Position numbers and translations under genes: made by a program. From NCBI RefSeq assembly GCF_000174415.1, contig NZ_ACJM01000006.1, positions 124,001 through 188,000 on the forward strand: a stretch of 64,000 bases of DNA, written 5' to 3'. Origin of the DNA: Dethiobacter alkaliphilus AHT 1. Lineage in GTDB: Bacteria; Bacillota; Dethiobacteria; Dethiobacterales; Dethiobacteraceae. The notes beneath the pieces were generated by a model. It was not told where the DNA came from and did no database searches. It saw only the letters and a list, made by a program, of their open reading frames with translations. Shown piece after piece: positions 1,647 through 57,524 of the stretch. Numbering within the stretch: the stretch's first letter is position 1; each line of letters opens with the position of its first letter.

Positions 1647-2948
1647 CTATTGGATTCTGGTGTGACAGGCCATACACAGTTCGTTGGCAGGCATGATGCG
1701 CATGCGGGTGTACTCGGTGCCGTGGGGGCCGTGGCAGGAGCTGCAAAGTAAGGCGCGGCTGCGCAGATCGTCGGTGTAGATCTCCCCTACGGGGTGGTTG
1801 GAACCACTGTGCTCCAGGCCGGGGTGACACTGGGCGCATACTTCCAGCTCGGGACCTAAAAGGAGCGCGTCGTACATGGCGCCGTGGATTTCATGGCAAT
1901 CGCCGCAGCGCAGCAGGCCATGGCCTGAATCGAAGTAATATTGGCTGATGGGTCCGTGGCAGTACAGGCAGAGGTTCTCCTCCCCTTCCAGGGGAAAACG
2001 GCTGAGGAAGATTTCGTAGGAGGAATGATGTTCGTGGCAGGCGCCGCAGGATTTATCCTCATCTTCAAAAACTGTGGAGTGGGGTGAGTCGAACCAGCCT
2101 ATTTTTTTGATGCGGTCGTGACACATAAAGCAGAATTCCTCTTCCTGTTCGTGGGGTAGTAACATATCGCCTACGGAGCTGTGGGGCTCATGGCAGGCGG
2201 TGCATTGGCCTTCGCCGTAGGGGCCGTGGGTGATGGGTCGGTTTAGTTCGTTGGGGCGGTCAAAGTGGCAGGAATAGCAGAGACGGGTTTGGTCCTGGCG
2301 GATTAAGCCATCCCAGGCTGAGGCGTGGGGTAAGTGGCAGTCCATGCAGAGGTCCCTTTCGAAGGGCATGTGCTGGAATGCTCTGTTCCATTCGTCCTCC
2401 ATGCGGTGGCAAGAAGCGCAAAGCTTGGCTAAGGGTTGGCGCAGGAGGTCCGGTTCACGGGTCATGTGGGCTTCGTGGCAGGACAGGCACTGGTTGAGTT
2501 CGTAAGGCATGTGGCCTACCGGGTCTTCGAATTTAAGCATGTCGTCGCGGTGACAGGACAGGCATAGTTTGTCTAAGGGTACCGTTAGTTGGGATGCCTC
2601 GAAGAGTCGGTGGGGTTGGTGACAGGATGTGCATTGTTTTTTTTCGACGGGTTCGTGGACAAAGTAGCCCGGCTTAGCTCTGTATTCGTAGTGGCAGATG
2701 AGGCAGGAATCGATGCTGGGGAGATAGGGTTTGCCAAAATGGGTATGGGGGTTGTGGCACTGGAGGCAGGAATCGTCGGTGAAGTCGATGTCGGCGTGGG
2801 CGGGAATGTCCCGTTTGTCCCAGTGGCAGGTGACGCAGAGTCCCCGGGAGCCCTGGGGTGGCAGTTGGGGTAATAGCCTGAAGGGGAGTAGGATGAAAAG
2901 CAGTATGAGAATCAGTAAGGCCAGGCTTAGACTGATTAACTTGCTCAT
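1647..2948 (-). CDS. 17-heme c-type cytochrome (doubled-CXXCH type)
   Basis: The 433-residue protein has an uncleaved-looking signal anchor (about residues 4-27) followed by seventeen CXXCH motifs spread evenly to the C-terminus. Most motifs alternate in the doubled-CXXCH pattern, CLSCH ... CxxCHxxH, seen in DmsE/MtrA-like and other long multiheme conduits. There is no catalytic-looking domain between hemes, so the likely role is long-range electron conduction outside the membrane. The ATG is preceded by AAGGGGGG. It follows a TPR gene and the 12-heme gene in the same unit. A wall-spanning conduit is my inference from the elongated heme chain and single anchor. Confidence 0.9.
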   Translation of the reverse strand: MSKLISLSLALLILILLFILLPFRLLPQLPPQGSRGLCVTCHWDKRDIPAHADIDFTDDSCLQCHNPHTHFGKPYLPSIDSCLICHYEYRAKPGYFVHEPVEKKQCTSCHQPHRLFEASQLTVPLDKLCLSCHRDDMLKFEDPVGHMPYELNQCLSCHEAHMTREPDLLRQPLAKLCASCHRMEDEWNRAFQHMPFERDLCMDCHLPHASAWDGLIRQDQTRLCYSCHFDRPNELNRPITHGPYGEGQCTACHEPHSSVGDMLLPHEQEEEFCFMCHDRIKKIGWFDSPHSTVFEDEDKSCGACHEHHSSYEIFLSRFPLEGEENLCLYCHGPISQYYFDSGHGLLRCGDCHEIHGAMYDALLLGPELEVCAQCHPGLEHSGSNHPVGEIYTDDLRSRALLCSSCHGPHGTEYTRMRIMPANELCMACHTRIQ

Positions 2949-3659: not shown

Positions 3660-4775
3660 TTACCAACCTACGTTCTCTTCGGTGTGGCAGTCGAAGCAGG
3701 AAGTGGCGCCGTGGCAGTCAAAGCAGCCAAAGGAACCTTGCTCCCGGACTACGTCTAGGTGATCCCAGTACCAGCGGGGATCGTCGTGGCCGTCGGGTAC
3801 CATGTCGTGGCACTGGCCGCAGGTGATAACGTCGGCCTGGCGTACGCCTTCTTCTGGCTCGTTCCAGTCGTGGCAGACCATACAGCCGGACTGGTCTTCC
3901 AGGGCGGGAATCTTGTGGCCCACGGAGAAGTAGGCGTCGTGGGTAACGGGGCGCTGGCCTTCGTGGCAGTCCACACAGAACTTGGCGTTTCTGGTCATGG
4001 CGGCAATGTTGTGGCCGGGTACTTCCCGTACCTTGCCGAAGCCGGTATGGCAACGCATGCAATCGTCAATATCTTCACGGACTTCGTCGCCGTGGTTGTA
4101 GCCAAAGTCGGAACGATAGTGGTCGTCGGGGATGCCGATATCTGTATGGCAGATTTCACAGTTATAGGTGACCCGTTCGCCGTCGTGACATTCCAGACAG
4201 CTGGTCTTGGTCAAAGAGAAGTCGCGGTACTCTGTTTCCTGGAACTGAGCAATTACTTCTGTGGTGGGTTCAAAGGTTTCTTTAATGCTTAAGCCGGCGT
4301 GACCCACTTCATAGTGGCAGTCTACACAGCTGGTGCCGTAGCCCAAGTGCTCGGCATGCCAGTCGCCGCCGCGAAGATCAAGGCCCGGGGTGATCTGACG
4401 GTTAGTGGAGTGACAGGACAGGCAGGTTTCATCACTGATTTCGCGGTTGCCTTCGATGGGCAATGCTACATCGGAGGTACGGTAGGTAATCCATTCGCTG
4501 ATGCGCTGTGCCTGTACCTGGACAAAACCGGTGCCCGGCTCAACGTGACAGTTGTCGCAGCTGACGTTGGCGTGGGGTGAATTCTGCCAGGTGTAGTAAT
4601 AGGGTTCCATAACGTGGCAGCTGGCACAGGAATCCGGATTAGTGGAATCGGTGGCTGCAACGCCTAATAAGAAAACCAGAAGAACAATAATCAGGCCACC
4701 AAGAACGTAGAACATTTTCTTGTTACCGTGGGATTCGTCATGTGAATCGCCTTTACGGAAACTAAGCTTACCCAA
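3660..4775 (-). CDS. 12-heme c-type cytochrome, NapC/NrfH-like quinol dehydrogenase candidate
   Basis: The start is assigned to a TTG at 4773-4775 because GGGGGAGGT stands 7 bases upstream; no ATG nearby has such a site. The 371-residue product has a membrane helix (about residues 21-40) and twelve CXXCH motifs. The first pair (SCASCHVMEPYYYTW, then SCDNCHVEPG) is the NapC/NrfH signature, which suggests menaquinol oxidation at the membrane face. The last two hemes lie close together near the C-terminus (CFDCH repeated). It leads a unit with a TPR protein and a 17-heme cytochrome and has its own promoter at 4933-4961. It is a paralogue of the 83-1165 product. Confidence 0.9.
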   Translation of the reverse strand: MGKLSFRKGDSHDESHGNKKMFYVLGGLIIVLLVFLLGVAATDSTNPDSCASCHVMEPYYYTWQNSPHANVSCDNCHVEPGTGFVQVQAQRISEWITYRTSDVALPIEGNREISDETCLSCHSTNRQITPGLDLRGGDWHAEHLGYGTSCVDCHYEVGHAGLSIKETFEPTTEVIAQFQETEYRDFSLTKTSCLECHDGERVTYNCEICHTDIGIPDDHYRSDFGYNHGDEVREDIDDCMRCHTGFGKVREVPGHNIAAMTRNAKFCVDCHEGQRPVTHDAYFSVGHKIPALEDQSGCMVCHDWNEPEEGVRQADVITCGQCHDMVPDGHDDPRWYWDHLDVVREQGSFGCFDCHGATSCFDCHTEENVGW

Positions 4776-4932
4776 TGAAATGACCTCCCCCTGCCATGAT
4801 GTGAAATATGGCACTTTTCTAGTTAAAAAAATAATGCATAATTGCTCTGTGGGACTTTTGAAATCCCAATGCGGGACGTTTACACTAATTCTTATTCTGG
4901 TTAGTAATTAAAATTCCTGCTACGCCCGACAA

Positions 4933-5155: not shown

Positions 5156-5190
5156 AAAGAAGCCGCCCTTTTTGCAAAGGCGGCTTCTTT
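5156..5190 (-). terminator. Rho-independent terminator after the monoheme gene
   Basis: A 12-bp perfect stem AAAGAAGCCGCC / GGCGGCTTCTTT closes an 11-base loop just downstream of the stop at 5204. The A/T-rich ends give T runs in both directions, so it could also work on the plus strand. Confidence 0.85.
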
Positions 5191-5203: not shown

Positions 5204-5740
5204 TTACTCTTCTGTGCCGTTGTCGGGGTCGTCACCGTTGGCGGTATCTCCGTCGTCGGGTTCTTCACCGTTGGCGGTGTCTCCGTCGCCGGGTTCTTCA
5301 CCGTTGGCGGTGTCTCCGTCGCCGGGCTCTTCACCGTTGTCGGTGTCTCCGTCGTCGGGTTCTTCACCGTTGGCGGTGTCTCCGTCGCCGGGCTCTTCAC
5401 CGTTGGCGGTGTCTCCGTCGCCGGGCTCTTCACCGTTGGCGGTGTCTCCGTTGTCGGGTTCGTCAACGTTACTGGTGCTTACATCACCGTTATCGGCAGG
5501 TGGAACATATCCTTCTACATAGAGGTTCTCGGTTATACCCTGGTGGAAAGTGTGGCATTCGAAGCAGGTCAGGCCCAGAGCGTGCTCGGGATTTGTGGGA
5601 TCAAAATCCAGTAGGCTGCACTCTTTTGCCAAATCCTCATCTCCTTCAGCCATTACCACCGGGACGGCCACAACGATTAGCAAAATGACGGCTGTGAGTA
5701 AACAGATTAGATTGAACTTCTTTTTTGTTGTTTTTGGCAT
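5204..5740 (-). CDS. Secreted monoheme protein with acidic tandem-repeat tail
   Basis: The 178-residue precursor has a signal peptide (residues 1-31, cleavage after VMA) and a single heme motif, CFECHTFHQG at residues 59-68. From about residue 97 to the end it is low-complexity and very acidic, built of seven 11-residue units of the type DTANGEEPGDG. The heme motif with a histidine three residues after CXXCH closely resembles heme 1 of its upstream neighbour (CFRCHSTHQG). No family is recognised. AAAGGGGG precedes the ATG. It is the last gene of the propeller/21-heme/hexaheme unit. I infer a partner of the hexaheme protein, such as a filament cap or surface adaptor; this is a hypothesis. A further cysteine at residue 41 is not part of a heme motif. 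Confidence 0.85.
   Translation of the reverse strand: MPKTTKKKFNLICLLTAVILLIVVAVPVVMAEGDEDLAKECSLLDFDPTNPEHALGLTCFECHTFHQGITENLYVEGYVPPADNGDVSTSNVDEPDNGDTANGEEPGDGDTANGEEPGDGDTANGEEPDDGDTDNGEEPGDGDTANGEEPGDGDTANGEEPDDGDTANGDDPDNGTEE
5216..5446 (-). repeat. 33-bp coding tandem repeat, about 7 copies
   Basis: Seven in-frame 33-bp units encode DTANGEEPGDG with small changes (GDG, DDG or DNG endings; one DTDNG). The units differ by only a few bases, so copy number may vary between strains. The array encodes the acidic tail of the monoheme protein. Confidence 0.9.
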
Positions 5741-5777: not shown

Positions 5778-7130
5778 TTAATAGAATCTCTGGTCATAGG
5801 GACGGAAGTCGCTGTCCCAAACGAACTCGTTGCCGTGGCTGCTGTAGTGGCAGGCAATGCAGACCGAACCACCGATATGGCGCTTGTTGGCAGGGGTTCT
5901 GTCGCTGAAGTTATCACCAACAATTTGCTTGTTGGAATCCATCATCAGGTCGCCTCGGGTACCATGAGCAAAGTGGCAGGACAGGCAGTTGCTGTTGCCG
6001 TCTTCGGAGTACGGTGTGGCGTAGCTGTTGCTCCAACGACGATAAACGTTATGGCCGTGGTATTCCTGGCCATCGATTTCGTAAGTGTCTTCGGTTCTGT
6101 TACTGATATCGTAGTAACCATGGCAGGAACCGCACCAGCGGTTAACGTTACTGGTGTACATTCTAACGTCTCTTGTTACTTCTGCACCGTCTTCGTCGTA
6201 GTAGGTACCTTCAAAGTCGCCGGTAACCTGTACGATGATGGGCAGGAAAACAGCTGCGTTAATGGTTTCGCCCAGGTCTTCAGCAATTCTGATTTCACCG
6301 TCAATGGCATTAACTTCAAAGTTGGTGCTCCAGGAATTACCGTCGATAACTCTCTGGAATAACCAACCGTCGTTTTGCTGGATGGCCACAGGGTACAGAG
6401 CGTAGCGGCGGAGTCTCTGGAAGTAAGCACGCAACCAGGGAGCCTCATCTGCTTCTGCTTTGTAGAGGTAGTTGCCTTCTGTTCCGGTTCTTGTTAATTC
6501 AACAAGGGTAACTTGGTCACCAGCTTCTAAGATGGCGTCCATTCTATCATCCCAGGACGGGTTATCCCCGCCTTCGGGATAGAACTTTCCATCGATGGTC
6601 TGGTTGGGGTTGAGGCGCATGTAAGCGTGTGCTCTGTTGCCGCTATCACTGCTGAAGGTGCCGTGGGGCTGGTGGCAGGATGCGCAGCTAAATTCTGGCT
6701 TGTGGGTTTCGCCGCCTTTGTTGCCGGGGGCGACGGCCACAGGGGTAATCAGATCTTCTGCAAGATCCACGGAGTGGGCTGAAAAGTTTGCCACATCTTG
6801 GCCATTAATCATGGCATCCAGGTCAAAAAGACCGCTGTGCATCATGTTGCTACCGCCTGTAACAGAGCGGGCGCCTGTACCGTCATGGCAGGCTACGCAG
6901 ACTGTACTTACGGAAATATAACCGTATCTGTCTTGGACATCTACAATACCTCTGCCAAAGGTAGCGGGGACGATTGAAGTCATCAAAACTTCGCCCACAC
7001 CCTGGTGAGTAGAGTGACAACGGAAGCAGGTGGTACCCTGCTCATCGGGATAGTGAAATGCTAGTGCTGAGCCTGCAAAGAGTACCAGCAATAGGGTGGC
7101 AAGAGCGCAAATTAAAAGCACTTTTCTCAT
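5778..7130 (-). CDS. OmcS-like secreted hexaheme c-type cytochrome
   Basis: The 450-residue precursor has a cleavable signal peptide (residues 1-24, cut before FHYP) and no anchor, so it is released outside the membrane. It has six CXXCH motifs: CFRCHSTHQG, CVACHDG, CASCHQPHG, CGSCHGYYD, CLSCHFAHG and CIACHYSSHG. Length, heme number, heme order, the mature FH start, CXXCHxxH at heme 1, CHxPHG at heme 3, WCxxCH at heme 4 and NCLSCHxAH at heme 5 all match my recollection of Geobacter OmcS, the subunit of micrometre-long cytochrome filaments. In OmcS the histidine three residues after the heme-1 motif ligates heme 5 of the next subunit; here His42 (mature His18) is in that place. AAAGGAGATGA precedes the ATG. 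Neighbours are an NHL propeller upstream and the monoheme protein downstream. Filament formation is inferred. Confidence 0.85.
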   Translation of the reverse strand: MRKVLLICALATLLLVLFAGSALAFHYPDEQGTTCFRCHSTHQGVGEVLMTSIVPATFGRGIVDVQDRYGYISVSTVCVACHDGTGARSVTGGSNMMHSGLFDLDAMINGQDVANFSAHSVDLAEDLITPVAVAPGNKGGETHKPEFSCASCHQPHGTFSSDSGNRAHAYMRLNPNQTIDGKFYPEGGDNPSWDDRMDAILEAGDQVTLVELTRTGTEGNYLYKAEADEAPWLRAYFQRLRRYALYPVAIQQNDGWLFQRVIDGNSWSTNFEVNAIDGEIRIAEDLGETINAAVFLPIIVQVTGDFEGTYYDEDGAEVTRDVRMYTSNVNRWCGSCHGYYDISNRTEDTYEIDGQEYHGHNVYRRWSNSYATPYSEDGNSNCLSCHFAHGTRGDLMMDSNKQIVGDNFSDRTPANKRHIGGSVCIACHYSSHGNEFVWDSDFRPYDQRFY

Positions 7131-7151: not shown

Positions 7152-8129
7152 CTAATCGAAGATTGATACAGACAAATAGTCTGTGACATACAGAAAGCCA
7201 TTGTCATCAAGGGCTATGCCGTTTGGTAATTCAAACAAGTCTTGTCCGAACCGTTCGGTTACTCTGCCTGTTTCGTCAAGTACGGTAATATCGTTGGTTA
7301 TTTTTGTTGCGACGTAGAGTTGTCCCCGGGGCCCAAAGATTATTCCCCTGGGACTAAAGAGAGGTTCGTTGTTTAAGGTTTCGATAAATTCACCGTTAAT
7401 GGTGTATACCTGGATACGATTATTGCCGGTATCACTAACATAGAGGTTGCCGTCGGGTCCGATTACGGCATCGTTGGGAAACATGAGCTGGCCTAAGCCG
7501 TCTCCCTCGGAGCCGATTTTACGGAGAAGTTCGCCGGTCTCCAGGTCAAAGACCAGAATCTGACCGGGATCGAGATTGCTTACGTAGAGGCTTGTCTCAT
7601 GTATAAACAATCCGGCGGGCTGGGTCAGCTCTTTTTCCTGTGGGGCAAAATAGCGCAAGAAGTTACCTCTGTCATCGAAGACGCTAATATTGCCGTTGTA
7701 TACGTCCGCCACGAAAATTTCTCCGTTGGAAGTCTTTTCGATACCGTAGGGAAAGCTGAATTCCCCAGGTTTGTTGCCACTTTCTCCGAAAGCAAATCGA
7801 GGATTACCGGATAGCGAAAAGACCTGTACGCGCTTGTTCATGGTGTCTGTTACATAAACCTGGCCGGATGAAACCAGCACACCCATTGGCTTATGCAGCA
7901 TGTTTTCACCCTCACCTAAAATTGCGTACTGGTAATTATGTTCTCCGGTTGCTTTGCCAGGTAGCCCGGCATTGGCGGCATTATGTTGCAGAAAAACTGC
8001 AAATGCCCAACCGATTACCAACAAGGAAAACACAACAGAGAGCGCTAGCAGCAAGTATACAGTTTTAACCTTACGCTGACCTAAAACGGCTATATTGTTT
8101 TTTACTTCCCGGAGGTCTACAACAGCCAT
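7152..8129 (-). CDS. Membrane-anchored NHL-repeat beta-propeller protein
   Basis: The 325-residue protein has a cytoplasmic N-terminus, one membrane helix (about residues 22-46) and about six NHL repeats forming a beta-propeller outside the cell. Typical repeat pieces are GKPGEFSFPYGI-like, LYVSDTGNNRIQVY and IFVADVYNGNISVF. NHL propellers act as protein-binding scaffolds. It is 22 bases upstream of the hexaheme gene, and a paralogue (10596-11585) opens the same unit. Propeller genes are known neighbours of filament-forming cytochromes, so an assembly or export role is plausible, but no enzymatic residues can be pointed to. Confidence 0.88.
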   Translation of the reverse strand: MAVVDLREVKNNIAVLGQRKVKTVYLLLALSVVFSLLVIGWAFAVFLQHNAANAGLPGKATGEHNYQYAILGEGENMLHKPMGVLVSSGQVYVTDTMNKRVQVFSLSGNPRFAFGESGNKPGEFSFPYGIEKTSNGEIFVADVYNGNISVFDDRGNFLRYFAPQEKELTQPAGLFIHETSLYVSNLDPGQILVFDLETGELLRKIGSEGDGLGQLMFPNDAVIGPDGNLYVSDTGNNRIQVYTINGEFIETLNNEPLFSPRGIIFGPRGQLYVATKITNDITVLDETGRVTERFGQDLFELPNGIALDDNGFLYVTDYLSVSIFD

Positions 8130-8141
8130 GGTTCCACATCC

Positions 8142-8813
8142 TTATTCAGTATCTGCAACTCGTTCCAATCCTTCCCGGGCAGCTAAAAGCTCAGGATTAT
8201 AGCTTAGAGCTTCCTGGTAAAACTCACGGGCTTCCTCCATATTATCCTGCTGCTCAAGCAGGTATCCCATATAGAAATGGGTGTCTGCGGAGTGCCGGTT
8301 AATTCCCAAGGCAGTATCCAGTGCGATTTCAGCCTGATCCCATTCTTCCAAACCCATCAAGGCTACACCTAAAACCAGATGTGCTTCCCAGTTTTCGGAG
8401 TTAATCTCGACAGCCTGGTTCAATGAATCAATGGCACTGGCGTGATCGGAAAGCTGCAGGTAAGTAAGGCCGGCGTTGTAGAGTGCTCCAAAGTGGTTCG
8501 GGTTAATTTCCAAAGCAGTCAGATGTTTATCCAGTGCTTCTTCAAACTCCCCCGCCTTGTAGTAGTGCCATCCCAGATCAACCCAGTGTTCAGGCTTGTC
8601 GGGTTCGCTCTCCACCAGAGCAAGGTAATAGTTTAGGCCTCTGTCCAGTGGATTTTGCGCCTGGGAAGGCTGCCAGAAATATTTCTGACCGACGGAATAT
8701 AAAATAGATACGGTCACAAGAATTACCACAAAGAAGATTGCTGCTGCCTTATAGAGGGATATTTCCTTGTTCAGGATACCGCCCTCGTTACTGTTGGCCC
8801 TTATTTCGGACAT
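8142..8813 (-). CDS. Membrane-anchored TPR protein
   Basis: The 223-residue protein has a membrane helix (about residues 22-44) and at least four TPR units, for example the piece containing ALEINPNHFGALYNAGLTYL. It lies between the 21-heme gene and the second NHL gene with gaps of 12-19 bases, so it is translated from the same mRNA. GAGGTGA precedes the ATG. Its likely job is binding apocytochromes or other partners during assembly, as inferred from context. It has the same design as the TPR protein at 2973-3635 but is clearly diverged from it. Confidence 0.85.
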   Translation of the reverse strand: MSEIRANSNEGGILNKEISLYKAAAIFFVVILVTVSILYSVGQKYFWQPSQAQNPLDRGLNYYLALVESEPDKPEHWVDLGWHYYKAGEFEEALDKHLTALEINPNHFGALYNAGLTYLQLSDHASAIDSLNQAVEINSENWEAHLVLGVALMGLEEWDQAEIALDTALGINRHSADTHFYMGYLLEQQDNMEEAREFYQEALSYNPELLAAREGLERVADTE

Positions 8814-8832: not shown

Positions 8833-10485
8833 TTAATAAGCTGTCAAAGATTCTCTTGTGTGGCACCCCATGCACAATTGGTTGTTTAAAGGCTGCTTAA
8901 GTAAGTATTCATATGATGGGCCGTGGATACTGGTATGACAGGAGGAGCAGAAAACATCTGTGCCCAACTCCCGTGCAGTACCGATGGGGTGGTTGTTAAA
9001 GAGTGTACCACTTGCCATGTAACTGCCGGTTTTACCGTCGTGGCAGGCAGTACAGGTTGCAACCTCAGAACGCTGCAGCAGGGATGTGTAGGGGGAGCCG
9101 TGAGTCGTATGACAGTGGTAACAACTGTCCTGGCCGCCTACATTCCTATGAACGCTCTGGTTAAACTCTGTAACGGTGCCACCGTGACAAGTGCTGCACA
9201 GGTCATTACCTGTTGCCCGTAAAAGATTCACGTTTTGCCCCGCGTGCGCTTGGGTGTGACAACTGCTGCAGTTAAAAGCTCCGGCCCCTACAGGATGGCT
9301 GGAAGTCTGGTTAAACTCTGCAACTGTTTCTGTATGGCAGCTCTGACAAAATGCCGTCCTGTTTGCAGTAAACAGCAGATTGCGAGCCGGTGCGGCGTGG
9401 GCGGTGTGGCAAGATGCGCAGGAACCGTCCTCAAACGGTTTATGCTGTACGGAAAGGTTCTGTTGCGCTCTTACATCGCCATGGCATGAATAACATAGTG
9501 ATGTAGTGTCCTGAGTGAGGAGCGCCGAGCCCCGTACGGAACTGGTATGAGTTTCGTGACAGGATGCGCAGTTTCCATCACTGAAGGGTTTGTGCTTAAC
9601 TGCCTGATTTAGTTCTGCCCTTGTTGAGTTATGGCAGGTATAGCATAAATCAGGTGAATTTGCGACCAACAGCCCGCTAATGTCAGCGGCATGAGACTCG
9701 TGGCATGAGACACAGGATTGGTTAACCGGAGCGTGTGTCACAGGATTGCCCAGACCTACATCGCCGGAGTGACACTCCAGGCAGAGGCTGCGTTCTTGCT
9801 TTACCAGAAGCGCCGAATCCGCGATAGGACTGCTGTGGGCTTCGTGGCAACTGAGGCAGTCACCGGAAATAAACGGTTCGTGCTGCCAGGTTTTGTTCAG
9901 CTCATTTTCCTGCTCCGTGTGACAGCTGAGGCAGAGCTCGTCAGTTTGGGCTGTCAGCAATACTTCGAAGTCAGTAGCGTGAGCATCATGACAGTCTGAG
10001 CAGGATTCTTCGAAAGGTTTATGTAGGACCGGATTGTCTTCAATGTCTACACTATCGTGGCAATCCAGACACAGACTCCTTTCTTCCTGAACCAACATGC
10101 CCTGGAAGGGCGATTGGTGCGCATCATGACAGGAGAGACAGTCTCCTTCATCATAGGGTGCGTGAACAGACTGCATATTGGCGCTATCGTCGGAATGGCA
10201 GGTCAGGCATAACTCAGTAACCGTAGGTTGGGTAAAGCCGAACTCGTTCTCCTGCGTATGGTCAATATGACACATTGTGCAGGATTCGGATTGTACCGGT
10301 TGATGTACAACATAATCGGCTTTAGCCTCGTACTCACTATGGCACAGAAGGCAGCTTGCCTGCTCTCTTGGGGGAGCTGTGACAGGGTCTGTCCGACTAG
10401 TCAGAGCTTGGTAAAGCAAAGGGCCCAGCCCCCCGACTACAATGACAGTTAAGGCAACGTAAAACAGCTTTTGGCGTTCAGCCAA
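8833..10485 (-). CDS. 21-heme c-type cytochrome (doubled-CXXCH repeats)
   Basis: The start is a TTG at 10483-10485 with AAAGGAGGTG 10 bases upstream. The 550-residue product has an N-terminal membrane anchor (about residues 7-27) and twenty-one CXXCH motifs in regular tandem, in pairs of about 45 residues: a CLxCH followed by a histidine-containing linker and SCxxCHxxH. The regularity points to growth by internal duplication of a two-heme module. It resembles the 17-heme protein at 1647-2948 in design. The most likely role is an elongated electron conduit across the cell wall, from membrane to surface; the partners would be the NapC-like proteins and the hexaheme protein. Confidence 0.9.
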   Translation of the reverse strand: MAERQKLFYVALTVIVVGGLGPLLYQALTSRTDPVTAPPREQASCLLCHSEYEAKADYVVHQPVQSESCTMCHIDHTQENEFGFTQPTVTELCLTCHSDDSANMQSVHAPYDEGDCLSCHDAHQSPFQGMLVQEERSLCLDCHDSVDIEDNPVLHKPFEESCSDCHDAHATDFEVLLTAQTDELCLSCHTEQENELNKTWQHEPFISGDCLSCHEAHSSPIADSALLVKQERSLCLECHSGDVGLGNPVTHAPVNQSCVSCHESHAADISGLLVANSPDLCYTCHNSTRAELNQAVKHKPFSDGNCASCHETHTSSVRGSALLTQDTTSLCYSCHGDVRAQQNLSVQHKPFEDGSCASCHTAHAAPARNLLFTANRTAFCQSCHTETVAEFNQTSSHPVGAGAFNCSSCHTQAHAGQNVNLLRATGNDLCSTCHGGTVTEFNQSVHRNVGGQDSCYHCHTTHGSPYTSLLQRSEVATCTACHDGKTGSYMASGTLFNNHPIGTARELGTDVFCSSCHTSIHGPSYEYLLKQPLNNQLCMGCHTRESLTAY

Positions 10486-13585: not shown

Positions 13586-14881
13586 TTAGCAGGTTACTTC
13601 TTTGGCGGCGGCAAATGCTTTGTCTGCGGCGTGGATGGTTTTTTCCACTTCGGCTAAAGTGTGGGCCAGGGAGACAAAGCCTGCTTCGAACTGGGACGGG
13701 GCGATGTAGACGCCGTTTTCCAGGAGGGTCTTAAAGTACATGCGGAAACGGGGGATATTGGAGGTGGCGGCTGTTGGGAAGTCAAAGACATCCTGGTCTG
13801 TGAAGTACACGCAGCTCATGGAGCCCACACGCTTGAAGGTCACTTCAATATCGTGTTTTTGTGCCACTTCTTTTAGGCCGCCGGCCAAAAGGGCCGAGGT
13901 TTTCTCCAGCTTTTCGTAGGTACGGTTTTCCTTAAGGGCCAAGAGCATTTCCCGTCCGGCAGCCATGGCCAGGGGGTTGCCGGAGAGGGTACCGGCCTGG
14001 TAGATGGGACCGGCGGGAGCTACATGCTCCATAATGTCTTTGCGGCCGCCAAAGGCGCCTACCGGCAGGCCGCCGCCGATGACCTTACCTAAGGTGGTGA
14101 GGTCCGGGGTGACGTTGTAGAGTTCCTGGGCGCCGCCGTAGGCTACCCGGAAACCGGTCATTACTTCGTCAAAAATTAACAGGGCGCCGTGTTCTTGGGT
14201 AACTTCCCGCAGGCCTTCCAAAAAGCCTTCGTTGGGAATGGCCAGGCCCATGTTGCCGGCGATGGGTTCTATGATGACGGCGGCGATTTCTTCGCCGATC
14301 TGGTTAAAGACTTCTTTTACCGCTTCTAAGTCGTTAAAGTTAACGGTGATGGTGTCCTGGGCTACCCCTTCTGTGACACCGGGGCTGTCGGGCAGGCCTA
14401 AGGTGGTAACACCGGAGCCGGCTTTAATGAGCAGGCTGTCGCCGTGGCCGTGGTAGCCGCCGGCAAACTTGACGATTTTGTTGCGGCCGGTGAAGCCGCG
14501 GGCCACGCGCAGGGCGCTGATTACCGCTTCGGTGCCGGAGTTTACCATGCGTACCATCTCAATGGAGGGTACGGCGTCGATGACCAGTTGGGCCATTTCC
14601 GTTTCGATTTCGGTGGGGGCACCAAAGCTTGTCCCCTTCTCCGCTGCTTTCTGTACGGCGGAGACAATGCGGGGATGGGCATGACCTAAGATCATGGGGC
14701 CCCAGGAAGCAACATAGTCCACATATTGGTTGCCGTCGGCGTCATAGACGTAGGCTCCCTTGGCTTTGGTTAAAAAGATGGGGTCCATGCCGATGGATTT
14801 AAAAGCGCGTACCGGGCTGTTGACACCGCCGGGCATCACTTCCTTGGCTTCGGCAAATAGTTTTTGGGATTTTTCGTACAT
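13586..14881 (-). CDS. hemL: Glutamate-1-semialdehyde 2,1-aminomutase
   Basis: The 431-residue product is a full-length PLP-dependent aminomutase that turns glutamate-1-semialdehyde into 5-aminolevulinate, the second step of the C5 tetrapyrrole route. Visible family features are the N-terminal [22 protein letters not shown] before the cofactor site, and the PLP-lysine region [18 protein letters not shown]. It pairs functionally with hemA at 23754-25106. A good promoter at 15027-15055 and a terminator on each side show it is a separate transcription unit at the end of the heme cluster. Confidence 0.97.
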
Positions 14882-15026
14882 GTACTCTCCTCCTGTATGT
14901 AGAAATTTTATTCAGAGTTCCCGGCATGGTTAGAAACCGGGCAAACTTGTCCATACTTCCTGGGCAATGTGCCAGGCATTTAGTGGAGCAGCAAAGAGTG
15001 CTTCTGCCCATATTCTGGTTGTAATT

Positions 15027-15055
15027 ATTGTATCTTGTCCGGGGGGATAATGCAA
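15027..15055 (-). promoter_or_regulatory. Sigma-A-like promoter of hemL
   Basis: TTGCAT (15050-15055) and TACAAT (15027-15032) are 17 bases apart on the minus strand. The leader of about 140 bases contains two small G+C-rich hairpins (CCTGG/CCAGG and CCCGG/CCGGG types), which could be regulatory. Confidence 0.65.
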
Positions 15056-15122
15056 TGTACGGTTATTGGCTGACACTCATCTTGAGCTTATTCTTTATTT
15101 GAGTAATTATATCAGGTTATGC

Positions 15123-15148
15123 AAAGGCCAGACGGATGTCTGGCCTTT
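15123..15148 (-). terminator. Rho-independent terminator after ahbB
   Basis: A perfect 11-bp stem AAAGGCCAGAC / GTCTGGCCTTT with a 4-base loop lies just after the ahbB stop. The T-rich part is mostly in the stem. It closes the long heme operon. Confidence 0.78.
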
Positions 15149-15152
15149 TGTG

Positions 15153-15620
15153 TTAGAAGTATTTCATGCTGGTTTTTTTGTATTCTTTGGTGCTGTAGAG
15201 CAGTTTGTAGTCGGTGATGCCCGTTTCTTTGGAGATCTGGGCGGCCACCTCTTCTAAGTCTTCCTTGGATTTGCCGTGGAGCATGGTAAAGAGGTTGTAG
15301 GGCCAGTCGGGATAGGTGGGACGGTGGTAAACGTGGGATGCTTCTTTAAACTGGGCCATGATGGGTCCTACCTCCTCCACCTTCTCGGCCGGAACGTTCC
15401 AGCCGCACATGGCGTTGGCGTTAAAGCCGGCCTTGTGGTGGCGCAGGATGGTACCCATGCGGCGCAGAATGCCGCTTTTTAAATAGGCGTTGATTTTTTG
15501 CAGCAGTTCCTCTTCTGTGATGCCCACTTCCTCTGCCACGGCGGCATAGGGGTTAGGCTGCAGGGGCAGATCCCCCTGCAGGCGGGAGATGATTTTTTTA
15601 TCCAAGTCGGTTATTTGCAT
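15153..15620 (-). CDS. ahbB: Siroheme decarboxylase subunit, AhbB type
   Basis: The 155-residue product has the Lrp/AsnC fold: an N-terminal helix-turn-helix-like part and a C-terminal RAM-like domain. The heme-pathway version is recognised by the substrate-site piece ASHVYHRPTYPDWPYNLF. With AhbA it removes two carboxyl groups from siroheme to give 12,18-didecarboxysiroheme. It lies 3 bases after ahbA and ends the operon. GGAGG precedes the ATG. A transcription-regulator annotation for such genes would be misleading, given the neighbours ahbA, ahbC and ahbD. Confidence 0.92.
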   Translation of the reverse strand: MQITDLDKKIISRLQGDLPLQPNPYAAVAEEVGITEEELLQKINAYLKSGILRRMGTILRHHKAGFNANAMCGWNVPAEKVEEVGPIMAQFKEASHVYHRPTYPDWPYNLFTMLHGKSKEDLEEVAAQISKETGITDYKLLYSTKEYKKTSMKYF

Positions 15621-15623
15621 ATT

Positions 15624-16100
15624 TTAAGCCTCCGACATGTCGAAATTAACACCGATTTTAAACAGGTTCAAGGCAGGCAGGTTGCGCAGCTTCACTACAC
15701 CGTCTAAGTCCATGATTTCGTTAAGTGTTTTTTGTAGTTCTTCTTCAGACCGGGTAACCAGGGTGAACCAGACGTTAAACTCATGGGCCCGCTGGTAGTT
15801 ATGGGTAACGCCGGGGTAGGCGCTTACCGCCTGGGCTACGGCGTCTGTTTTGTCCTCCTGGACTTTGAGGGCTACCAAAGTGGAGGAAAAGCCCATCTTC
15901 TGGGAGTCGAAGATGCCGCCGATGCGGCGTACCAGGCCGGACTCCTTGAGGGTGGCGACGCGCTTCATCACTTCCTCTTCTGTGAGGCCCACTTCCTGGG
16001 CGATGGCCGCATAGGGGCGGGACACCAAAGGATAGCGGGACTGGAGAATGTTTAGGATTTCACGGTCGAACCCTGAGAGGTTAGCTGCACTTTGCTTCAT
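15624..16100 (-). CDS. ahbA: Siroheme decarboxylase subunit, AhbA type
   Basis: This 158-residue Lrp/AsnC-like protein carries the piece VTHNYQRAHEFNVWFTL typical of AhbA (NirD/G-like) and partners AhbB in decarboxylating siroheme. Its start overlaps the end of ahbD by 20 bases, which suggests coupled translation. GGAGGGG precedes the ATG. The A/B assignment rests on the two substrate-site pieces and is slightly less certain than the family assignment. Confidence 0.92.
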   Translation of the reverse strand: MKQSAANLSGFDREILNILQSRYPLVSRPYAAIAQEVGLTEEEVMKRVATLKESGLVRRIGGIFDSQKMGFSSTLVALKVQEDKTDAVAQAVSAYPGVTHNYQRAHEFNVWFTLVTRSEEELQKTLNEIMDLDGVVKLRNLPALNLFKIGVNFDMSEA

Positions 16101-17091
16101 GGTCTTTTCCCCTCCGGTACAGGCACCACGGATCTTCGGCCATTACATCGCCGTCGGTGTAGTAGTAGGCGCGGGCACGGCAACCGCTGCAGACGTCTTT
16201 ATGGTTACAGGTGCCGCACTTGCCGCCGAACTCATCGCTTCTAAACTGCTGGAACATTTCCGCGGTGCGCCAGATTTCATCAAAGGGCATCTCCCGGACG
16301 TTGCCCACTTTCTTGGGCAGGTACGGGCAGGGGTGCACTTCACCGTTGGGCAGGATGCAGCAGTAGCCGGTACCGGCCAGGCAGCCGCGGCTAAAGCGCA
16401 TGTCCATCTTCATCTGGCGGGCAATACGCATAAACTGCGGAGCGCAGGTGGGCTTAAGCTCGATGTCCACCTCTTTTTGCTTGCGCATAATGCGGTGGAG
16501 TAATTGTTCATACTGCTTTTCGCGCAGCGCTTCCTCTTCCATGTCCAGGGCGCGGCCGGTGGGTACTAAAAAGAAGACGTGGTGTGCCTGGGCGCCTTTT
16601 TCTACCGCCAGGTCGGTGATGGCTTCGAATTCATGGTAGTTTTGCTCCACCACGGTGGTGTGGATCTGGAAAGGCAGGCCCACATCCTTGCAGTTTTTCA
16701 TGCCGTCGATGGCGCCCTGCCAGGAGCCGGGAACCTGACGGAACTCGTCGTGGATTTCCGCACCGGCGCTGTCTAAGGAAATCCCGATGCACATGGCGCC
16801 AGAATCCTTTAGCTTCTGGGCGATTTCCGGGGTAATGGTGGTGCCGGTGGTGCCAAATACCGGGCGCAGGCCCACCGATTTGGCATAGGCCGTTAATTCA
16901 TAGATATCTTCTCTTAAAAGCGGCTCACCGCCGGAGAGGATCAGGATCTTAAAGCCGGCTTTGGCGATTTCATCGATGAGCTTTTTACCCTCTTCGGTGC
17001 TAAGCTCCTCGGATCTTTTGGCACCGGCGTCGCGGTAGCAGTGTTTACATTTCAGGTGGCATTCCCAGGTTGTGTTCCAGGAAATAATCAT
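16081..17091 (-). CDS. ahbD: AhbD-type heme synthase (radical SAM)
   Basis: The 336-residue radical SAM protein has the cluster motif CHLKCKHC near residue 11, the GGEPLL SAM-binding piece, and a C-terminal cysteine-rich SPASM-like region (CLAGTGYCC, CPYL, CGTC, CSGC) for extra Fe-S clusters. AhbD enzymes oxidatively decarboxylate two propionates of Fe-coproporphyrin III to vinyl groups, giving heme. Such genes are often labelled NirJ2. It starts 1 base after the hemB stop and overlaps ahbA, so it is within the operon. ATG chosen because GGAGG lies 9 bases upstream. Confidence 0.9.
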   Translation of the reverse strand: MIISWNTTWECHLKCKHCYRDAGAKRSEELSTEEGKKLIDEIAKAGFKILILSGGEPLLREDIYELTAYAKSVGLRPVFGTTGTTITPEIAQKLKDSGAMCIGISLDSAGAEIHDEFRQVPGSWQGAIDGMKNCKDVGLPFQIHTTVVEQNYHEFEAITDLAVEKGAQAHHVFFLVPTGRALDMEEEALREKQYEQLLHRIMRKQKEVDIELKPTCAPQFMRIARQMKMDMRFSRGCLAGTGYCCILPNGEVHPCPYLPKKVGNVREMPFDEIWRTAEMFQQFRSDEFGGKCGTCNHKDVCSGCRARAYYYTDGDVMAEDPWCLYRRGKDHEAKCS

Positions 17092-17092
17092 A

Positions 17093-18073
17093 CTACATAT
17101 CCTCCTTCAGCCAGGCGGCTGCGTCTTTGGCAAAGTAGGTGAGAATCATATCGGCACCGGCGCGCTTCATGCTGAGAAGCATCTCCAGGGTCACCCTTTT
17201 TTCGTCTACCCAGTCATTTTGGGCGGCGGCTTTAATCATGGAATATTCGCCGGAGACGTTATAGGCGGCCACCGGGACGTTGGTTACCTCTTTTACGGCA
17301 CGGATAACGTCCATGTACGACAGGGCGGGCTTCACCATTAACATGTCGGCACCTTCGGCCAAGTCCTGCTCAATTTCTTTTAAGGCTTCACGGACATTGC
17401 CCGGGTCCATCTGGTAGGAGCGGCGGTCGCCAAACTGGGGCGTGGAACCGGCGGCGTCGCGAAAAGGCCCGTAGAAGGCGGAAGCGTACTTAACCGCATA
17501 GGACATTACCGGGATTTTTTCAAAGCCGTGGCCGTCAAGGGCACTGCGGATGGCCCCAACGCGGCCGTCCATCATGTCTGAGGGGGCCACGATGTCTGCG
17601 CCGGCTCGGGCGTGAGAGAGCGCCGTCCGAGCCAGCAAATCCAGGGTGGGGTCATTTAAGACGTCACCGTCTTCAATGAGGCCGCAATGACCGTGGCTTG
17701 TGTATTCACACAGACAGACATCGGTTATCACAATTAATGTGGGGAATTCTTTTTTCAGGGCGGCACAAGCTTTCTGCACCGCTTCATCGGGATCATAACC
17801 GGAAGAGCCCTTCTCATCCTTGTAGGCGGGGATGCCAAAAAGAATCACACCGGGGATACCCAGCTTCAGGCACTCTTCCCCTTCTTTTAAAACATTGTCC
17901 ACCGACATCTGATAAACGCCGGGCATGGAAGCAATGGGCTTCTTCACGTTCTTACCGTTGGTCACAAACAAAGGATAAATCAAATCGCGGGGCAACAAAT
18001 CTGTTTCCCGCACCAAACGCCGCATAGCATCACTTACCCGCAACCTACGCGGCCGAACAATGGGAAATTCCAA
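17093..18073 (-). CDS. hemB: Porphobilinogen synthase (5-aminolevulinate dehydratase)
   Basis: The product joins two 5-aminolevulinates into porphobilinogen. Family marks are the N-terminal RPRRLR, a metal-site region with [12 protein letters not shown] (cysteine-rich, zinc type), the Schiff-base lysine in [19 protein letters not shown] and the second lysine in [11 protein letters not shown] prefer the TTG at 18071-18073 as start because AGAGGTG is 6 bases upstream; the in-frame GTG at 18082 falls inside that ribosome binding site. This gives 326 residues, the usual size. Confidence 0.96.
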
Positions 18074-18100
18074 AACAAACACCTCTTTTCCCGAAGTCTA

Positions 18101-18230
18101 CAAAAAGGGGACGGACCTTTTTTCGCACAAACCATGCAAAATCCTGCACAAAACGCAAACAGCTAAGTCCCCTTTTGGGGAAAAACCAGACAAAGGAACC
18201 GTCCCCATGCCTGGTTTTGAAAAACTGTAC
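18101..18230. repeat. REP-like GGGGACGG motifs between hemB and ahbC
   Basis: The gap holds AAAAAGGGGACGGACC (18102-18117), an inverted AGTCCCCTTTTGGGG (18166-18180) and, on the minus strand, GGGGACGGTTCCTTTGTCT (18188-18206). GGGGACGGTTC motifs in clostridial genomes belong to REP-type palindromes linked to Y1/RAYT transposases; none is encoded here. Confidence 0.6.
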
Positions 18231-18280
18231 ACTCTTCCCGGATCTCGACTCAACATTCTTCCATCCCGGCCGGGCCGGTT

Positions 18281-18390
18281 GTTCAGAAGCAAGCAGGTCG
18301 CGAAGCAAGGGGTTCAGGCACCGGAGGCGTATTGATAATACGCTGAGGATGCCGGGTTCCCGCGGCGACAAAGAGATGCGCCGCTTATGG
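18281..18390 (+). repeat. 110-bp inverted repeat, copy A, downstream of ahbC
   Basis: This sequence recurs in opposite orientation at 19620-19729 on the other side of ahbC. By eye about 99 of 110 positions agree. It contains several hairpins, including GCGTATT-GAT-AATACGC; the loop differs between copies while the stem is kept, which points to selection for structure or recent common origin. Confidence 0.85.
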
Positions 18391-18410
18391 GCAACCGGCC
18401 CTACGACCTC

Positions 18411-18450
18411 GTTACTTAAGCGATGCCGATCTCGGCATCGGTTAAGTAAC
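18411..18450. repeat. 40-bp near-perfect palindrome over the ahbC stop codon
   Basis: Two 19-base arms with one mismatched pair surround a 2-base centre. The arms encode the last residues of AhbC (YLTDAEIGIA) and its stop. In mRNA it forms a long hairpin at the very end of the gene, without a T run, so it may protect or process the transcript rather than end it. Confidence 0.8.
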
Positions 18451-19591
18451 ATGCGGGGTCTGATTCCCAAAAGTCGCCGGTGGCGGCTTCGGCCCGGGCG
18501 CGGAAGTTGCCGTTGCAGATCTGGAGCCATTTGCACTGGGCGCAGCGGCCTTTTAAGAGAGGCTTGCGGTCCTTTAGGCCACCCAGGATAGGGTTTGAAG
18601 TGTCGGTCCAGATGTCGCCGAACTTGCGCTCGCGTACGTTGCCGAAGGTGTGGTTCTGGGTGAACTGGTCGGCGTGGACATTGCCCAGGTTATCCACCTG
18701 GCCGATGGCGATACCGGTGCGGTTACCACCGTTGTTCTGCAACAGCTCCCAAACCTTTTCGGCGCGCTTGGGATCTTCTTTTTTCATGCGCAGGTAGGTG
18801 TAGACACCGTCGGCGTGGTTATCCACGGTGAGGATTTCTTTGTCCAGGCCTTTTTTCTCGAAGTAGAGTACTTTATCAATGATAAGGTCCATGGCCTGGC
18901 GGCTTTCTTCGCGGGTTACGTCTTCTTTCATCATCTCAGAGCCGCGGCCGGAGTAAACCAGATGGTAGAAGCAGACCCGGGGGATATTTTCTTCTTCAAT
19001 GACTCTGAAGATATCTTCCATTTGGTCAAAGTTGTGGCGGTTGATGGTAAAACGCAGACCCACCCGCTGGTCGATTTCCAGGCAGTTGCGAATACCGGCC
19101 AAAGCCTTATCGTAGGCGCCATCCTGTTTGCGGAAGTCATCGTTTTTGGCGCCCACACCGTCTAAGCTGATGCCTACATACCCTACGCCCAGGTCCTTGA
19201 TCTTGCGGGCGGTGGGCTTGTCGATAAGGGTACCGTTGGTGGAGATGGTGACACGGATGCCGCGGGAGGTGGCGTATTCAGCCAGCTCAAAGAAGTCGGG
19301 ACGGATCAGCGGCTCGCCGCCGGAGAAAAGGATTACCGGGCTTTTGAATTCCGCCAGGTCGTCGATGAACTTCTTGCCTTCTTCGGTGGACATTTCATTT
19401 TCATACTTTATGTTTTCGGATCCCATATAGCAATGGATACATTTTAAGTTACAGGTCCGGGTACAGTTCCAGACCACCACAGGGCCGGCACCATGGGTTG
19501 TGCCGTGCATGGCACCGCGGGAGCAGTTGCTGTAGCGCAGCTGGTCACCATAATGTTCAGCACCGCAGAGAAGCTTAGTAACACCAATCAT
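18416..19591 (-). CDS. ahbC: AhbC-type 12,18-didecarboxysiroheme deacetylase (radical SAM)
   Basis: The 391-residue radical SAM protein has the motif CNLKCIHC, preceded by the family-specific N-terminus (GVTKLLCGAEHYGD, then CSRGAMHGTTHGAGP). GGEPLIRP binds SAM, and the C-terminal CAQC/CNGNFRARAEA region holds an auxiliary cluster. AhbC removes the two acetate side chains of didecarboxysiroheme, giving Fe-coproporphyrin III. It is often labelled NirJ1. GGGGGA precedes the ATG. Unlike its operon neighbours it is isolated by 180-340-base gaps that carry an inverted repeat pair, so it sits in a cassette-like position. Confidence 0.93.
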   Translation of the reverse strand: MIGVTKLLCGAEHYGDQLRYSNCSRGAMHGTTHGAGPVVVWNCTRTCNLKCIHCYMGSENIKYENEMSTEEGKKFIDDLAEFKSPVILFSGGEPLIRPDFFELAEYATSRGIRVTISTNGTLIDKPTARKIKDLGVGYVGISLDGVGAKNDDFRKQDGAYDKALAGIRNCLEIDQRVGLRFTINRHNFDQMEDIFRVIEEENIPRVCFYHLVYSGRGSEMMKEDVTREESRQAMDLIIDKVLYFEKKGLDKEILTVDNHADGVYTYLRMKKEDPKRAEKVWELLQNNGGNRTGIAIGQVDNLGNVHADQFTQNHTFGNVRERKFGDIWTDTSNPILGGLKDRKPLLKGRCAQCKWLQICNGNFRARAEAATGDFWESDPACYLTDAEIGIA

Positions 19592-19619
19592 ACTTCGTTT
19601 TCCCCCTTCCCCAGAGTGT

Positions 19620-19729
19620 CCATAAGCGGCGCAGCTCTTTGTCGCTGCGGGAACCCGGCATCCTCGGCGTATGTACGATACGCCTGCGGTGCCGGAACCC
19701 CTTGCTTCGCGATCTGCTTGCTTCTGAAC
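19620..19729 (-). repeat. 110-bp inverted repeat, copy B, upstream of ahbC
   Basis: This is the reverse-complement partner of 18281-18390. It lies between the cobA-hemD stop and the ahbC ribosome binding site. It contains GCGTAT-CGTAC-ATACGC and a GCAGC...GCTGC stem. No transposase or recombinase gene lies between the copies. Confidence 0.85.
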
Positions 19730-19775
19730 ACTCTGGGATGAATGTTTTTGTAAGATTTTTATGAAAGCCGTAAAT

Positions 19776-21296
19776 TTATACTTTTTTTAGCGCTTCCACC
19801 AAACCATCTATTGTGTATTCGTCGGCTTCGATATCTATTTTGAGGCCTAAGTCCTTGGCGGACTGGGAAGTGATGGGGCCGATGCTTACCAGTTTCACGT
19901 CTTTTAAGAGGTCGTGGAGGTTATCGGCGTTTAGGATTTCCACAAAGTTTTTAACGGTGGAAGAGCTGGTGAAGGTTACGTAGTGGATCATTTTCTCTTC
20001 CAGGAGCTCTTTTAGAAGGGTGGCATCGCCGCCGCCGCGGACGGTGCGGTAGGCTACCACGTTTGTTACGTCGGCCTGCATTTCGTCGCGGAGAGTGTCG
20101 GGGAGGATTGCCCGGGCAATGTCGGCGCGGGGCATCAGTACTTTGTCGCCGGGGAGGAGTTTGCCGCGCAGCACGTCGATTACTGCTTCGGCTACGTACT
20201 CGGAGGGGACAAAGTCCACATTTAAGCACATGTCTTCTAAGCGCTCTTTAGTTTTGGGGCCGATGGCACATATTTTGGCGCCTTTTAGGTCGCGGATGTC
20301 GCGTTCGTGATGGCGCAGGCGGTTGAAGAAGTCGACGCCGTTGACGCTGGTGAAGATCAGCCAGTTATAGGTGTCTAGTTGGTTGATGGCCTCATCCATG
20401 GGGCCGTAATCTTCCGGATGGTCGATTTCAATGGCGGGGAATTCCCAGGCTTCGCCGCCCATTTCTTCAATGCGGCGGGAAAGGTCGCTGGCCTGTTCGC
20501 GGGAACGGGTTACCACCACCCGCTTGCCAAAGAAAGGCTTTTGTTCAAACCAGGTAAGGGTATCGCGCAGTTTTACCACTTCGCCCACGATGATGATGGC
20601 CGGGGAGGTGAAACCGGCGTCCTTTACTTTCTGGACGATGTCAAAGAGGGTACCGGTGAGGACGCGCTGCTCCGGGCGGGTACCCCAGCGAATCAGGGCC
20701 ACCGGTGTGTCGGCGGAGCGGCCGTTTTCCATCAGGTTCTGGGTGATGGAGGGCAGGTTGCCCACGCCCATGAGAAAAACCAGGGTGCCAATGCCGGTGG
20801 AGATTTTATCCCAATGGATGGAGGATTCGGTTTTTGTGGGATCCTCGTGTCCGGTGATGACGGCAAAGCTGGATGTACAGTCGCGGTGGGTCACCGGAAT
20901 GCCGGCATAGGCCGGAACTGCAATGGCGGAGGTGATGCCGGGTACCACTTCAAAGGGAACATTGTTTTCGCGCAGCAGCTCCCCTTCTTCGCCGCCGCGG
21001 CCGTAGACGTAGGGGTCGCCGCCTTTTAAGCGGGTCACCACTTTGCCTTCCAGGCCTTTATCCACCAGCAGCTGGTTGATTTCTTCCTGCTGGAGAGTGT
21101 GGCGGTCGGGCAGCTTACCCACGTAAATCATTTCACAGTCTTTGGGGGCGTAGCTGAGGAGGCGTTTGCTGGCCAGACGGTCATAGACCAGTACTTCGGC
21201 CTTTTTAATGCACTCCAGTCCTTTGACAGTAATCAGTCCGGGGTCGCCGGGGCCGGCGCCCACCAAATAAACTATTCCTACTTTAGGCATTGGCAT
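19776..21296 (-). CDS. cobA-hemD: Fused uroporphyrinogen-III C-methyltransferase / uroporphyrinogen-III synthase
   Basis: The 506-residue protein has two domains. Residues 1-245 are SUMT (CobA), recognised by YLVGAGPGDPGLIT, GGDPYVYGRGGEE and the VPGITSAIAVPAYAGIP region; it methylates uroporphyrinogen III to precorrin-2. Residues about 250-506 are HemD, which cyclises hydroxymethylbilane to uroporphyrinogen III. The fusion commits the pathway to siroheme, as needed for the Ahb route. The start overlaps the hemC end; ATG at 21296 is taken, with a second ATG at 21290 possible (AGGAG upstream). Fusions like this are common in Clostridia. Confidence 0.95.
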   Translation of the reverse strand: MPMPKVGIVYLVGAGPGDPGLITVKGLECIKKAEVLVYDRLASKRLLSYAPKDCEMIYVGKLPDRHTLQQEEINQLLVDKGLEGKVVTRLKGGDPYVYGRGGEEGELLRENNVPFEVVPGITSAIAVPAYAGIPVTHRDCTSSFAVITGHEDPTKTESSIHWDKISTGIGTLVFLMGVGNLPSITQNLMENGRSADTPVALIRWGTRPEQRVLTGTLFDIVQKVKDAGFTSPAIIIVGEVVKLRDTLTWFEQKPFFGKRVVVTRSREQASDLSRRIEEMGGEAWEFPAIEIDHPEDYGPMDEAINQLDTYNWLIFTSVNGVDFFNRLRHHERDIRDLKGAKICAIGPKTKERLEDMCLNVDFVPSEYVAEAVIDVLRGKLLPGDKVLMPRADIARAILPDTLRDEMQADVTNVVAYRTVRGGGDATLLKELLEEKMIHYVTFTSSSTVKNFVEILNADNLHDLLKDVKLVSIGPITSQSAKDLGLKIDIEADEYTIDGLVEALKKV

Positions 21297-22227: not shown

Positions 22228-22254
22228 GCGTGTACCTCCCAGCTTGTAATAAAA

Positions 22255-22896: not shown

Positions 22897-22920
22897 AATC
22901 ACCTTGTAACAGCATTAATT

Positions 22921-25106: not shown

Positions 25107-25168
25107 CTGTAACACCCCAAAATCCTGTATTCGCCAGGCGGCGTGTTGCTTAATCAAGGTAAGGTTAC

Positions 25169-25196
25169 GGCGCGGCAGGCATATCCTGCCGGCGCC
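25169..25196 (-). other. G+C-rich hairpin in the ccsB-hemA gap
   Basis: GGCGCGGCAGG pairs with CCTGCCGGCGCC (one bulge) around a CATAT loop, 60 bases upstream of the hemA start. There is no T run. It may set relative expression of the assembly and heme genes. Confidence 0.6.
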
Positions 25197-25231
25197 GCTT
25201 CCCTGTTAACTTTAGTGCGCTTTTTTATGGC

Positions 25232-26107: not shown

Positions 26108-26109
26108 TA

Positions 26110-57394: not shown

Positions 57395-57445
57395 TTTGTT
57401 CCCTCCTTCATTCGCCTGATTTTCAGACTACTCCGCAAAAATTCC

Positions 57446-57524
57446 CGGGCCACAAAGGCCCGCAACCTTTTGCTTCATTGTTATCATCCGGGCTGCATTA
57501 AAATCAGCTTCTAAAGCAGCCCGG
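57446..57524 (-). other. Two hairpins in the tuf-rpsJ gap
   Basis: CCGGGCTGC / GCAGCCCGG (57488-57524, 19-base loop, no T run) and CGGGCC-ACAAA-GGCCCG (57446-57462), the latter followed on the minus strand by GGAATTTTTGC. They may separate tuf and S10 transcripts by attenuation or processing. Confidence 0.6.

Follow-up and report, generated by a model that had tools for sequence, protein, structure and literature searches.

The closest described counterpart of the cytochrome reported here is OmcS of Geobacter sulfurreducens (PDB 6EF8, 6NEF), a secreted filament subunit with six hemes. Eleven of its 12 axial heme ligands are internal and one is supplied by the neighbouring subunit (PMC6584659), the heme ligated in this way being heme 5 (PMC12203936). 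OmcE of Geobacter (PDB 7TFS), which has four hemes instead of six, also has one heme ligated across the subunit interface (PMC12203936). Even for Geobacter, the anchoring and termination of cytochrome nanowires and the supply of electrons to them are said to be unresolved (PMC12307469). For Gram-positive bacteria, two sources (PMC7911101, PMC12203936) report an OmcS-like cytochrome of Thermincola with a proposed wall-crossing polymer. This protein, CwcA (Tfer_0075) of Thermincola ferriacetica, is a hexaheme cytochrome for which an OmcS-based model places a ligand from the adjacent subunit on heme 5, and for which a wall-spanning stack has been proposed; it is likened to our protein through its published description, which in its accessible part mentions no one-heme partner (PMC7911101). 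A Gram-positive OmcS-like case as such has therefore already been proposed, and the hexaheme described below is one of at least four OmcS-type proteins in its genome and a member of a broad Bacillota family. The more novel feature of the locus is its one-heme neighbour.

We analysed a window of 64,000 nucleotides (the whole stretch of DNA under study) from Dethiobacter alkaliphilus AHT1, a soda-lake bacterium of a species described as Gram-positive, with 34 contigs and 3.12 Mb (PMC5609068). The assembly used comprises 3,112,004 bases in 34 contigs and is 99.5% complete; Omp85 was not matched in it, and seven of 14 control genomes do match. Both the missing Omp85 match and the published description support the expectation that no outer membrane is present, so that the host, like that of CwcA-type cell-wall cytochromes, is a Gram-positive bacterium without an outer membrane.

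The initial annotation had proposed a secreted, unanchored six-heme protein of 450 residues resembling OmcS, and the features of the gene and its product agree with this. The open reading frame has an ATG start with an RBS-like AAAGGAGATGAG 5' of it, and the signal peptide, judged by eye, ends at SALA/FHYP. Inspection by eye of the whole 450-aa product revealed neither a second hydrophobic segment nor an LPXTG sorting motif. The six CXXCH motifs have their first cysteines at positions 35, 78, 149, 333, 382 and 424 of the precursor and follow the order found in OmcS; hemes 1, 3 and 5 show the extended form CxxCHxxH. All the heme motifs noted earlier were recovered, namely CFRCHSTH at heme 1, CASCHQPHG at heme 3, WCGSCH at heme 4 and NCLSCHFAHG at heme 5. 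The gene lies in a co-directional run that encodes, in order, a cytochrome with 21 CXXCH motifs, a TPR protein, an NHL protein, the hexaheme and a one-heme protein (Table 1). Successive genes of the run are separated by 19, 12, 21 and 37 bp.

Table 1. Coordinates of the features discussed in the text (positions in the window)
Feature	Position	Strand	Remarks
Hexaheme cytochrome assigned to the OmcS family	5778..7130	-	450-aa precursor; predicted mature start F25-H26
Heme 1 motif C35FRCH39	7014..7028	-	Reads CFRCHSTH with His42; invariant in 21 relatives
His42	7005..7007	-	Aligned with OmcS His16; proposed donor to neighbour's heme 5; invariant in 21/21
Heme 2 motif C78VACH82	6885..6899	-	
Heme 3 motif C149ASCH153	6672..6686	-	PHG directly after (CASCHQPHG)
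Heme 4 motif C333GSCH337	6120..6134	-	Context WCGSCH
Heme 5 motif C382LSCH386	5973..5987	-	NCLSCHFAHG; aligns with the OmcS heme ligated by neighbour's histidine
Heme 6 motif C424IACH428	5847..5861	-	
Beta-rich insert, hemes 3-4	6240..6560	-	Precursor residues ~191-297; sole confidently folded part of AlphaFold model
Cytochrome, 21 CXXCH motifs	8833..10485	-	First gene of tight run
TPR protein, N-terminal membrane anchor	8142..8813	-	
NHL beta-propeller, N-terminal membrane anchor	7152..8129	-	NHL gene beside most relatives
12-heme NapC/NrfH-type cytochrome	3660..4814	-	
Cytochrome, 17 CXXCH motifs	1647..2948	-	
Secreted one-heme protein, 178 aa	5204..5740	-	Last gene of operon; proposed filament cap or tether
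Sole heme site of one-heme protein, CFECHTFH, residues 59-66	5543..5566	-	Resembles hexaheme heme 1
33-bp tandem repeat, 7.7 copies	5217..5470	-	Encodes acidic GDGDTANGEEP tail of one-heme protein
Terminator-like hairpin, 15 pairs	5156..5190	-	Just 3' of one-heme gene; overall count of such sites about that expected by chance

A PDB search with the hexaheme as a single sequence did not find OmcS, whereas profiles did. With a profile of five close sequences (A1), OmcS already ranked first (E = 1.1e-4). With a second profile (A2), made from an alignment of 21 Bacillota relatives over 384 positions and searched against all PDB chains, OmcS was the top match (E = 5.6e-19, 72 bits), and profile positions 14-127 and 237-370 were covered in order. 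OmcE (E = 8.9e-7) and 9yuq followed at 32 bits, which leaves OmcS 40 bits ahead of OmcE, and the other multiheme proteins in the PDB reached at most 32 bits. In the profile alignment, 58 of 216 aligned residues (~27%) of the hexaheme are identical to OmcS.

It is very improbable that the hexaheme resembles OmcS through common heme motifs only and belongs with the generic paired-CXXCH cytochromes. Its Pfam and NCBIfam matches, which are to generic heme domains only, would fit such a protein. However, when OmcS residues 8-151 and 216-406 were shuffled 400 times with the heme motifs kept, and in half of the cases also the +3 histidines, no shuffle exceeded 26.3 bits on rescoring, as compared with 70.2 bits for OmcS itself. 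Moreover, OmcS and the hexaheme family share APGG before heme 3 and, in many relatives, CHTD at heme 4. The resemblance to OmcS thus reflects real homology. A better match to a soluble enzyme family was looked for and none was found: the multiheme enzymes NrfA, Otr, SirA and OcwA/OmhA were rejected, the best match being a nitrite reductase at E = 0.036. Membership of the hexaheme in the OmcS family is well supported by these comparisons.

In the alignment of 21 relatives, the motif Cys and His residues for hemes 1-5 are invariant, as are His42, His119, His156, His360 and His389 (window numbering), and the heme-6 histidine is present in 20 of the 21. Four orthologues from the same class (45-52% identity) also keep the heme motifs, except that one lacks heme 6. 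Their conservation, together with that of the heme motifs and of a second invariant histidine set in the 21 relatives, argues that the motifs of the hexaheme are not due to chance. In the orthologue without a heme-6 site (L028:9087-10505 / L034:7989-9407), an apparent in-frame loss of ~17 residues is seen, which could be an assembly error or a real loss. OmcS His16, His110, His147 and His335 align with invariant histidines of the hexaheme family; over OmcS fragments 8-151 and 216-406, four of the six candidate distal histidines align with those of OmcS, and His360 has no OmcS histidine opposite it. With six heme histidines and about six further conserved histidines as distal candidates, the hexaheme is compatible with bis-His ligation.

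We take His16 of OmcS to be the residue that is donated to the neighbour's heme 5. The suggestion that this histidine is kept as His42 was borne out by the alignment and by the invariance of His42. It should be noted that the invariance of His42 fits a ligand of the same chain equally well and cannot distinguish ligation by a neighbour from intrachain ligation. A filament of the hexaheme is nevertheless plausible, and we lean slightly towards an OmcS-type polymer. For such a polymer, the signal peptide would direct export of the hexaheme, six c-type hemes would be attached, and the subunits would stack head to tail, with His42 of each subunit serving as the axial ligand that heme 5 of the following one lacks. 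The resulting wire of hemes would run through the cell wall or extend beyond it.

Several differences from OmcS have to be considered. The hexaheme has ~27% identity to OmcS, its host is a monoderm, its operon includes NHL, TPR, 21-CXXCH and one-heme genes, and a beta-rich insert separates its hemes 3 and 4, which are 184 residues apart as compared with ~95 in OmcS. An AlphaFold model of the hexaheme, calculated without heme from a 20-row alignment, had a pLDDT of 44 and was confident in the insert only; fold-search matches to this poor model (tailspikes and similar) were set aside. The insert could hinder stacking, which would favour an OmcS-fold cytochrome that is located in the wall as a monomer or a short oligomer, ligates each of its six hemes from within its own chain, and serves soluble acceptors (thiosulfate or polysulfide, for example) as a relay or a reductase. 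We regard this alternative as possible, though rather unlikely. A second histidine candidate is conserved at every heme, leaving no obvious open catalytic site, and the best homologue is a filament subunit.

Expression data bear on the same alternative. By gene order, we infer that the hexaheme is DealDRAFT_1451 and that its paralogues P0001 and P0002, which are 66% identical to each other, are DealDRAFT_1443 and DealDRAFT_1435, respectively. The order fits the locus tags at the ETF genes (1432-1433), the Ig-like domains (1439), the NapC-type cytochrome (1449), the 21-heme cytochrome (1454) and the DmsE-like 9-heme cytochrome (1457). According to a published study, DealDRAFT_1435 is up on ferrihydrite, DealDRAFT_1443 and DealDRAFT_1451 are up on thiosulfate, and the authors compare DealDRAFT_1451 with the secreted multiheme cytochromes SmhB/SmhC (PMC10376724). 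The SmhB of Carboxydothermus has been described as rather specific for soluble ferric citrate. Induction of the presumed hexaheme gene on soluble thiosulfate, and not on ferrihydrite, counts against a polymer and, like the comparison with SmhB, is in favour of a relay for soluble acceptors; however, OmcS filaments have been obtained from fumarate-grown cells too (PMC12307469). These expression patterns suggest an acceptor-dependent switching between OmcS-type subunits. Should the mapping by gene order hold, a single cell would switch such subunits according to its electron acceptor.

At least four OmcS-type genes of D. alkaliphilus are matched by profile A2. Besides the window gene, these include L082:13815-15731(-), L029:7535-9244(-) and L031:7389-10061(-), which encode proteins with 6, 6 and 12 hemes, respectively; two of these three are, by gene order, DealDRAFT_1435 and DealDRAFT_1443. 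The same profile matched 27 of 398 sampled Bacillota genomes, and a scan of the genome collection found hexahemes in Dethiobacter MAGs, in Neobacillus, which is a cultured group, and in other Bacillota. The usual setting among the relatives consists of a 12-heme NapC-type cytochrome, an NHL gene and the hexaheme. In cultured Neobacillus genomes (L036, L045, L048), a compact module encodes a 10-heme and a 12-heme cytochrome, two membrane-anchored proteins in TPR-like and NHL-like position, one or two hexahemes and a 7-8-heme protein, the first heme of which best matches hexaheme heme 1. The hexaheme of a Bacillus MAG (L041:7626-9258) is split over two frames by a frameshift or a sequencing error, and in several Bacillota (L085, L086, L088, L089) hexaheme cores lie inside proteins of 858-1000 aa with 11-12 hemes. 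Hexahemes of various Firmicutes, with no function assigned, have also been placed in a cluster II.B in a paper that does not mention OmcS (PMC7829351); likened by description, they probably include part of the wider Bacillota OmcS-like family.

The gene that closes the hexaheme operon encodes a secreted protein with a single heme site, GLTCFECHTFHQG, in which the sequence CFECHTFHQG includes a donor-type +3 histidine (His66). It adjoins the hexaheme gene in four of five orthologues, and the +3 histidine and HQG are invariant across all four copies. When the one-heme sites were compared with 160 CXXCH sites of the examined genome stretches, hexaheme heme 1 was the best match, with a mean score of 26.75 and the next at 9.75. 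The pattern CxxCHxxHxG occurs at one of 160 other heme sites, and this site is hexaheme heme 1. Apart from the one-heme gene itself, a profile of the four one-heme sequences likewise matched nothing in the genome but heme 1 (E = 7.9e-5), a result that is not fully independent since the profile includes the window sequence. A weak match of this profile in G090 (E = 8e-4) was dropped, given its internal stop.

In c-type cytochromes, a histidine at +3 lies on the proximal side. In a protein with a single heme it could therefore hardly ligate that heme, which makes a ligand role in another chain attractive. The one-heme protein could thus be a mimic of the heme-1 docking site that, with its donor histidine, would occupy the heme 5 left vacant at one end of the chain and so terminate it, as a dedicated end protein that caps or tethers the wire; its acidic tail would face the wall or a mineral. 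We did not find the idea of an end protein for such filaments in the open-access papers searched, which is weak evidence of novelty. The proposal is tentative and rather unlikely. In L033 and L034, the likeness of the one-heme site to heme 1 of its own hexaheme does not go beyond the motif (scores 6 and 2), and a site of a 21- or 20-heme cytochrome scores higher (14 and 8), which counts against a cap. At six other Bacillota loci (L036, L038, L041, L045, L048, L099), a larger cytochrome is encoded just downstream of the hexaheme, and the best match of its first heme is heme 1 of the hexaheme (scores 19-41); those inspected share hemes 2 and 3 too, so that common descent explains the likeness as well as docking does. 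In other Bacillota, the downstream 7-12-heme proteins with a heme-1-like first heme could play the same end role. A universal heme-1-like partner was rejected, because many relatives are without a downstream cytochrome and L096 and L100 have one whose first heme is not heme-1-like. The absence of a one-heme gene beside one orthologue (L025/L032) also counts against a cap. The position of the acidic stretch differs: it lies before the heme site in L033-L035 and after it in the window protein.

There is about an even chance that the neighbour has instead nothing to do with filament ends and is a self-pairing cytochrome or an ordinary electron shuttle. Its small size, its secretion and its c-type heme would fit this, its likeness to heme 1 is only motif-deep outside the window, and histidines upstream or downstream of the motif could provide its own second ligand. 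However, the position of the gene at the close of the hexaheme operon, the invariance of the +3 histidine and HQG, and the near-exclusive sharing of CxxCHxxHxG with heme 1 are not what a shuttle would lead one to expect. In this locus, the gene of a candidate filament subunit lies next to that of a candidate end protein, and the organism is a cultured spore-former that has no outer membrane. In such a host the problem of crossing an outer membrane is removed, and the question of nanowire anchoring is made testable.

Other proteins of the locus may serve such a wire. Electrons would pass from menaquinol to the NapC/NrfH-type 12-heme protein, probably the quinol oxidase feeding the chain, and to the 17- and 21-CXXCH cytochromes, and from there to the wire. 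The NHL and TPR proteins, both anchored in the membrane, would aid in assembling it, the NHL beta-propeller possibly as an assembly or docking factor.

Beside the cytochrome cluster, at 13586-27438, the window carries genes for heme synthesis (hemL, two Lrp-like siroheme decarboxylase-type genes, two radical SAM genes, hemB, a cobA-hemD fusion, hemC and hemA) and for c-type cytochrome assembly (two CcsA-type genes and ResB). The sole Rfam match of the window at gathering score is an S10-Clostridia ribosomal protein leader at 57412-57486(-).
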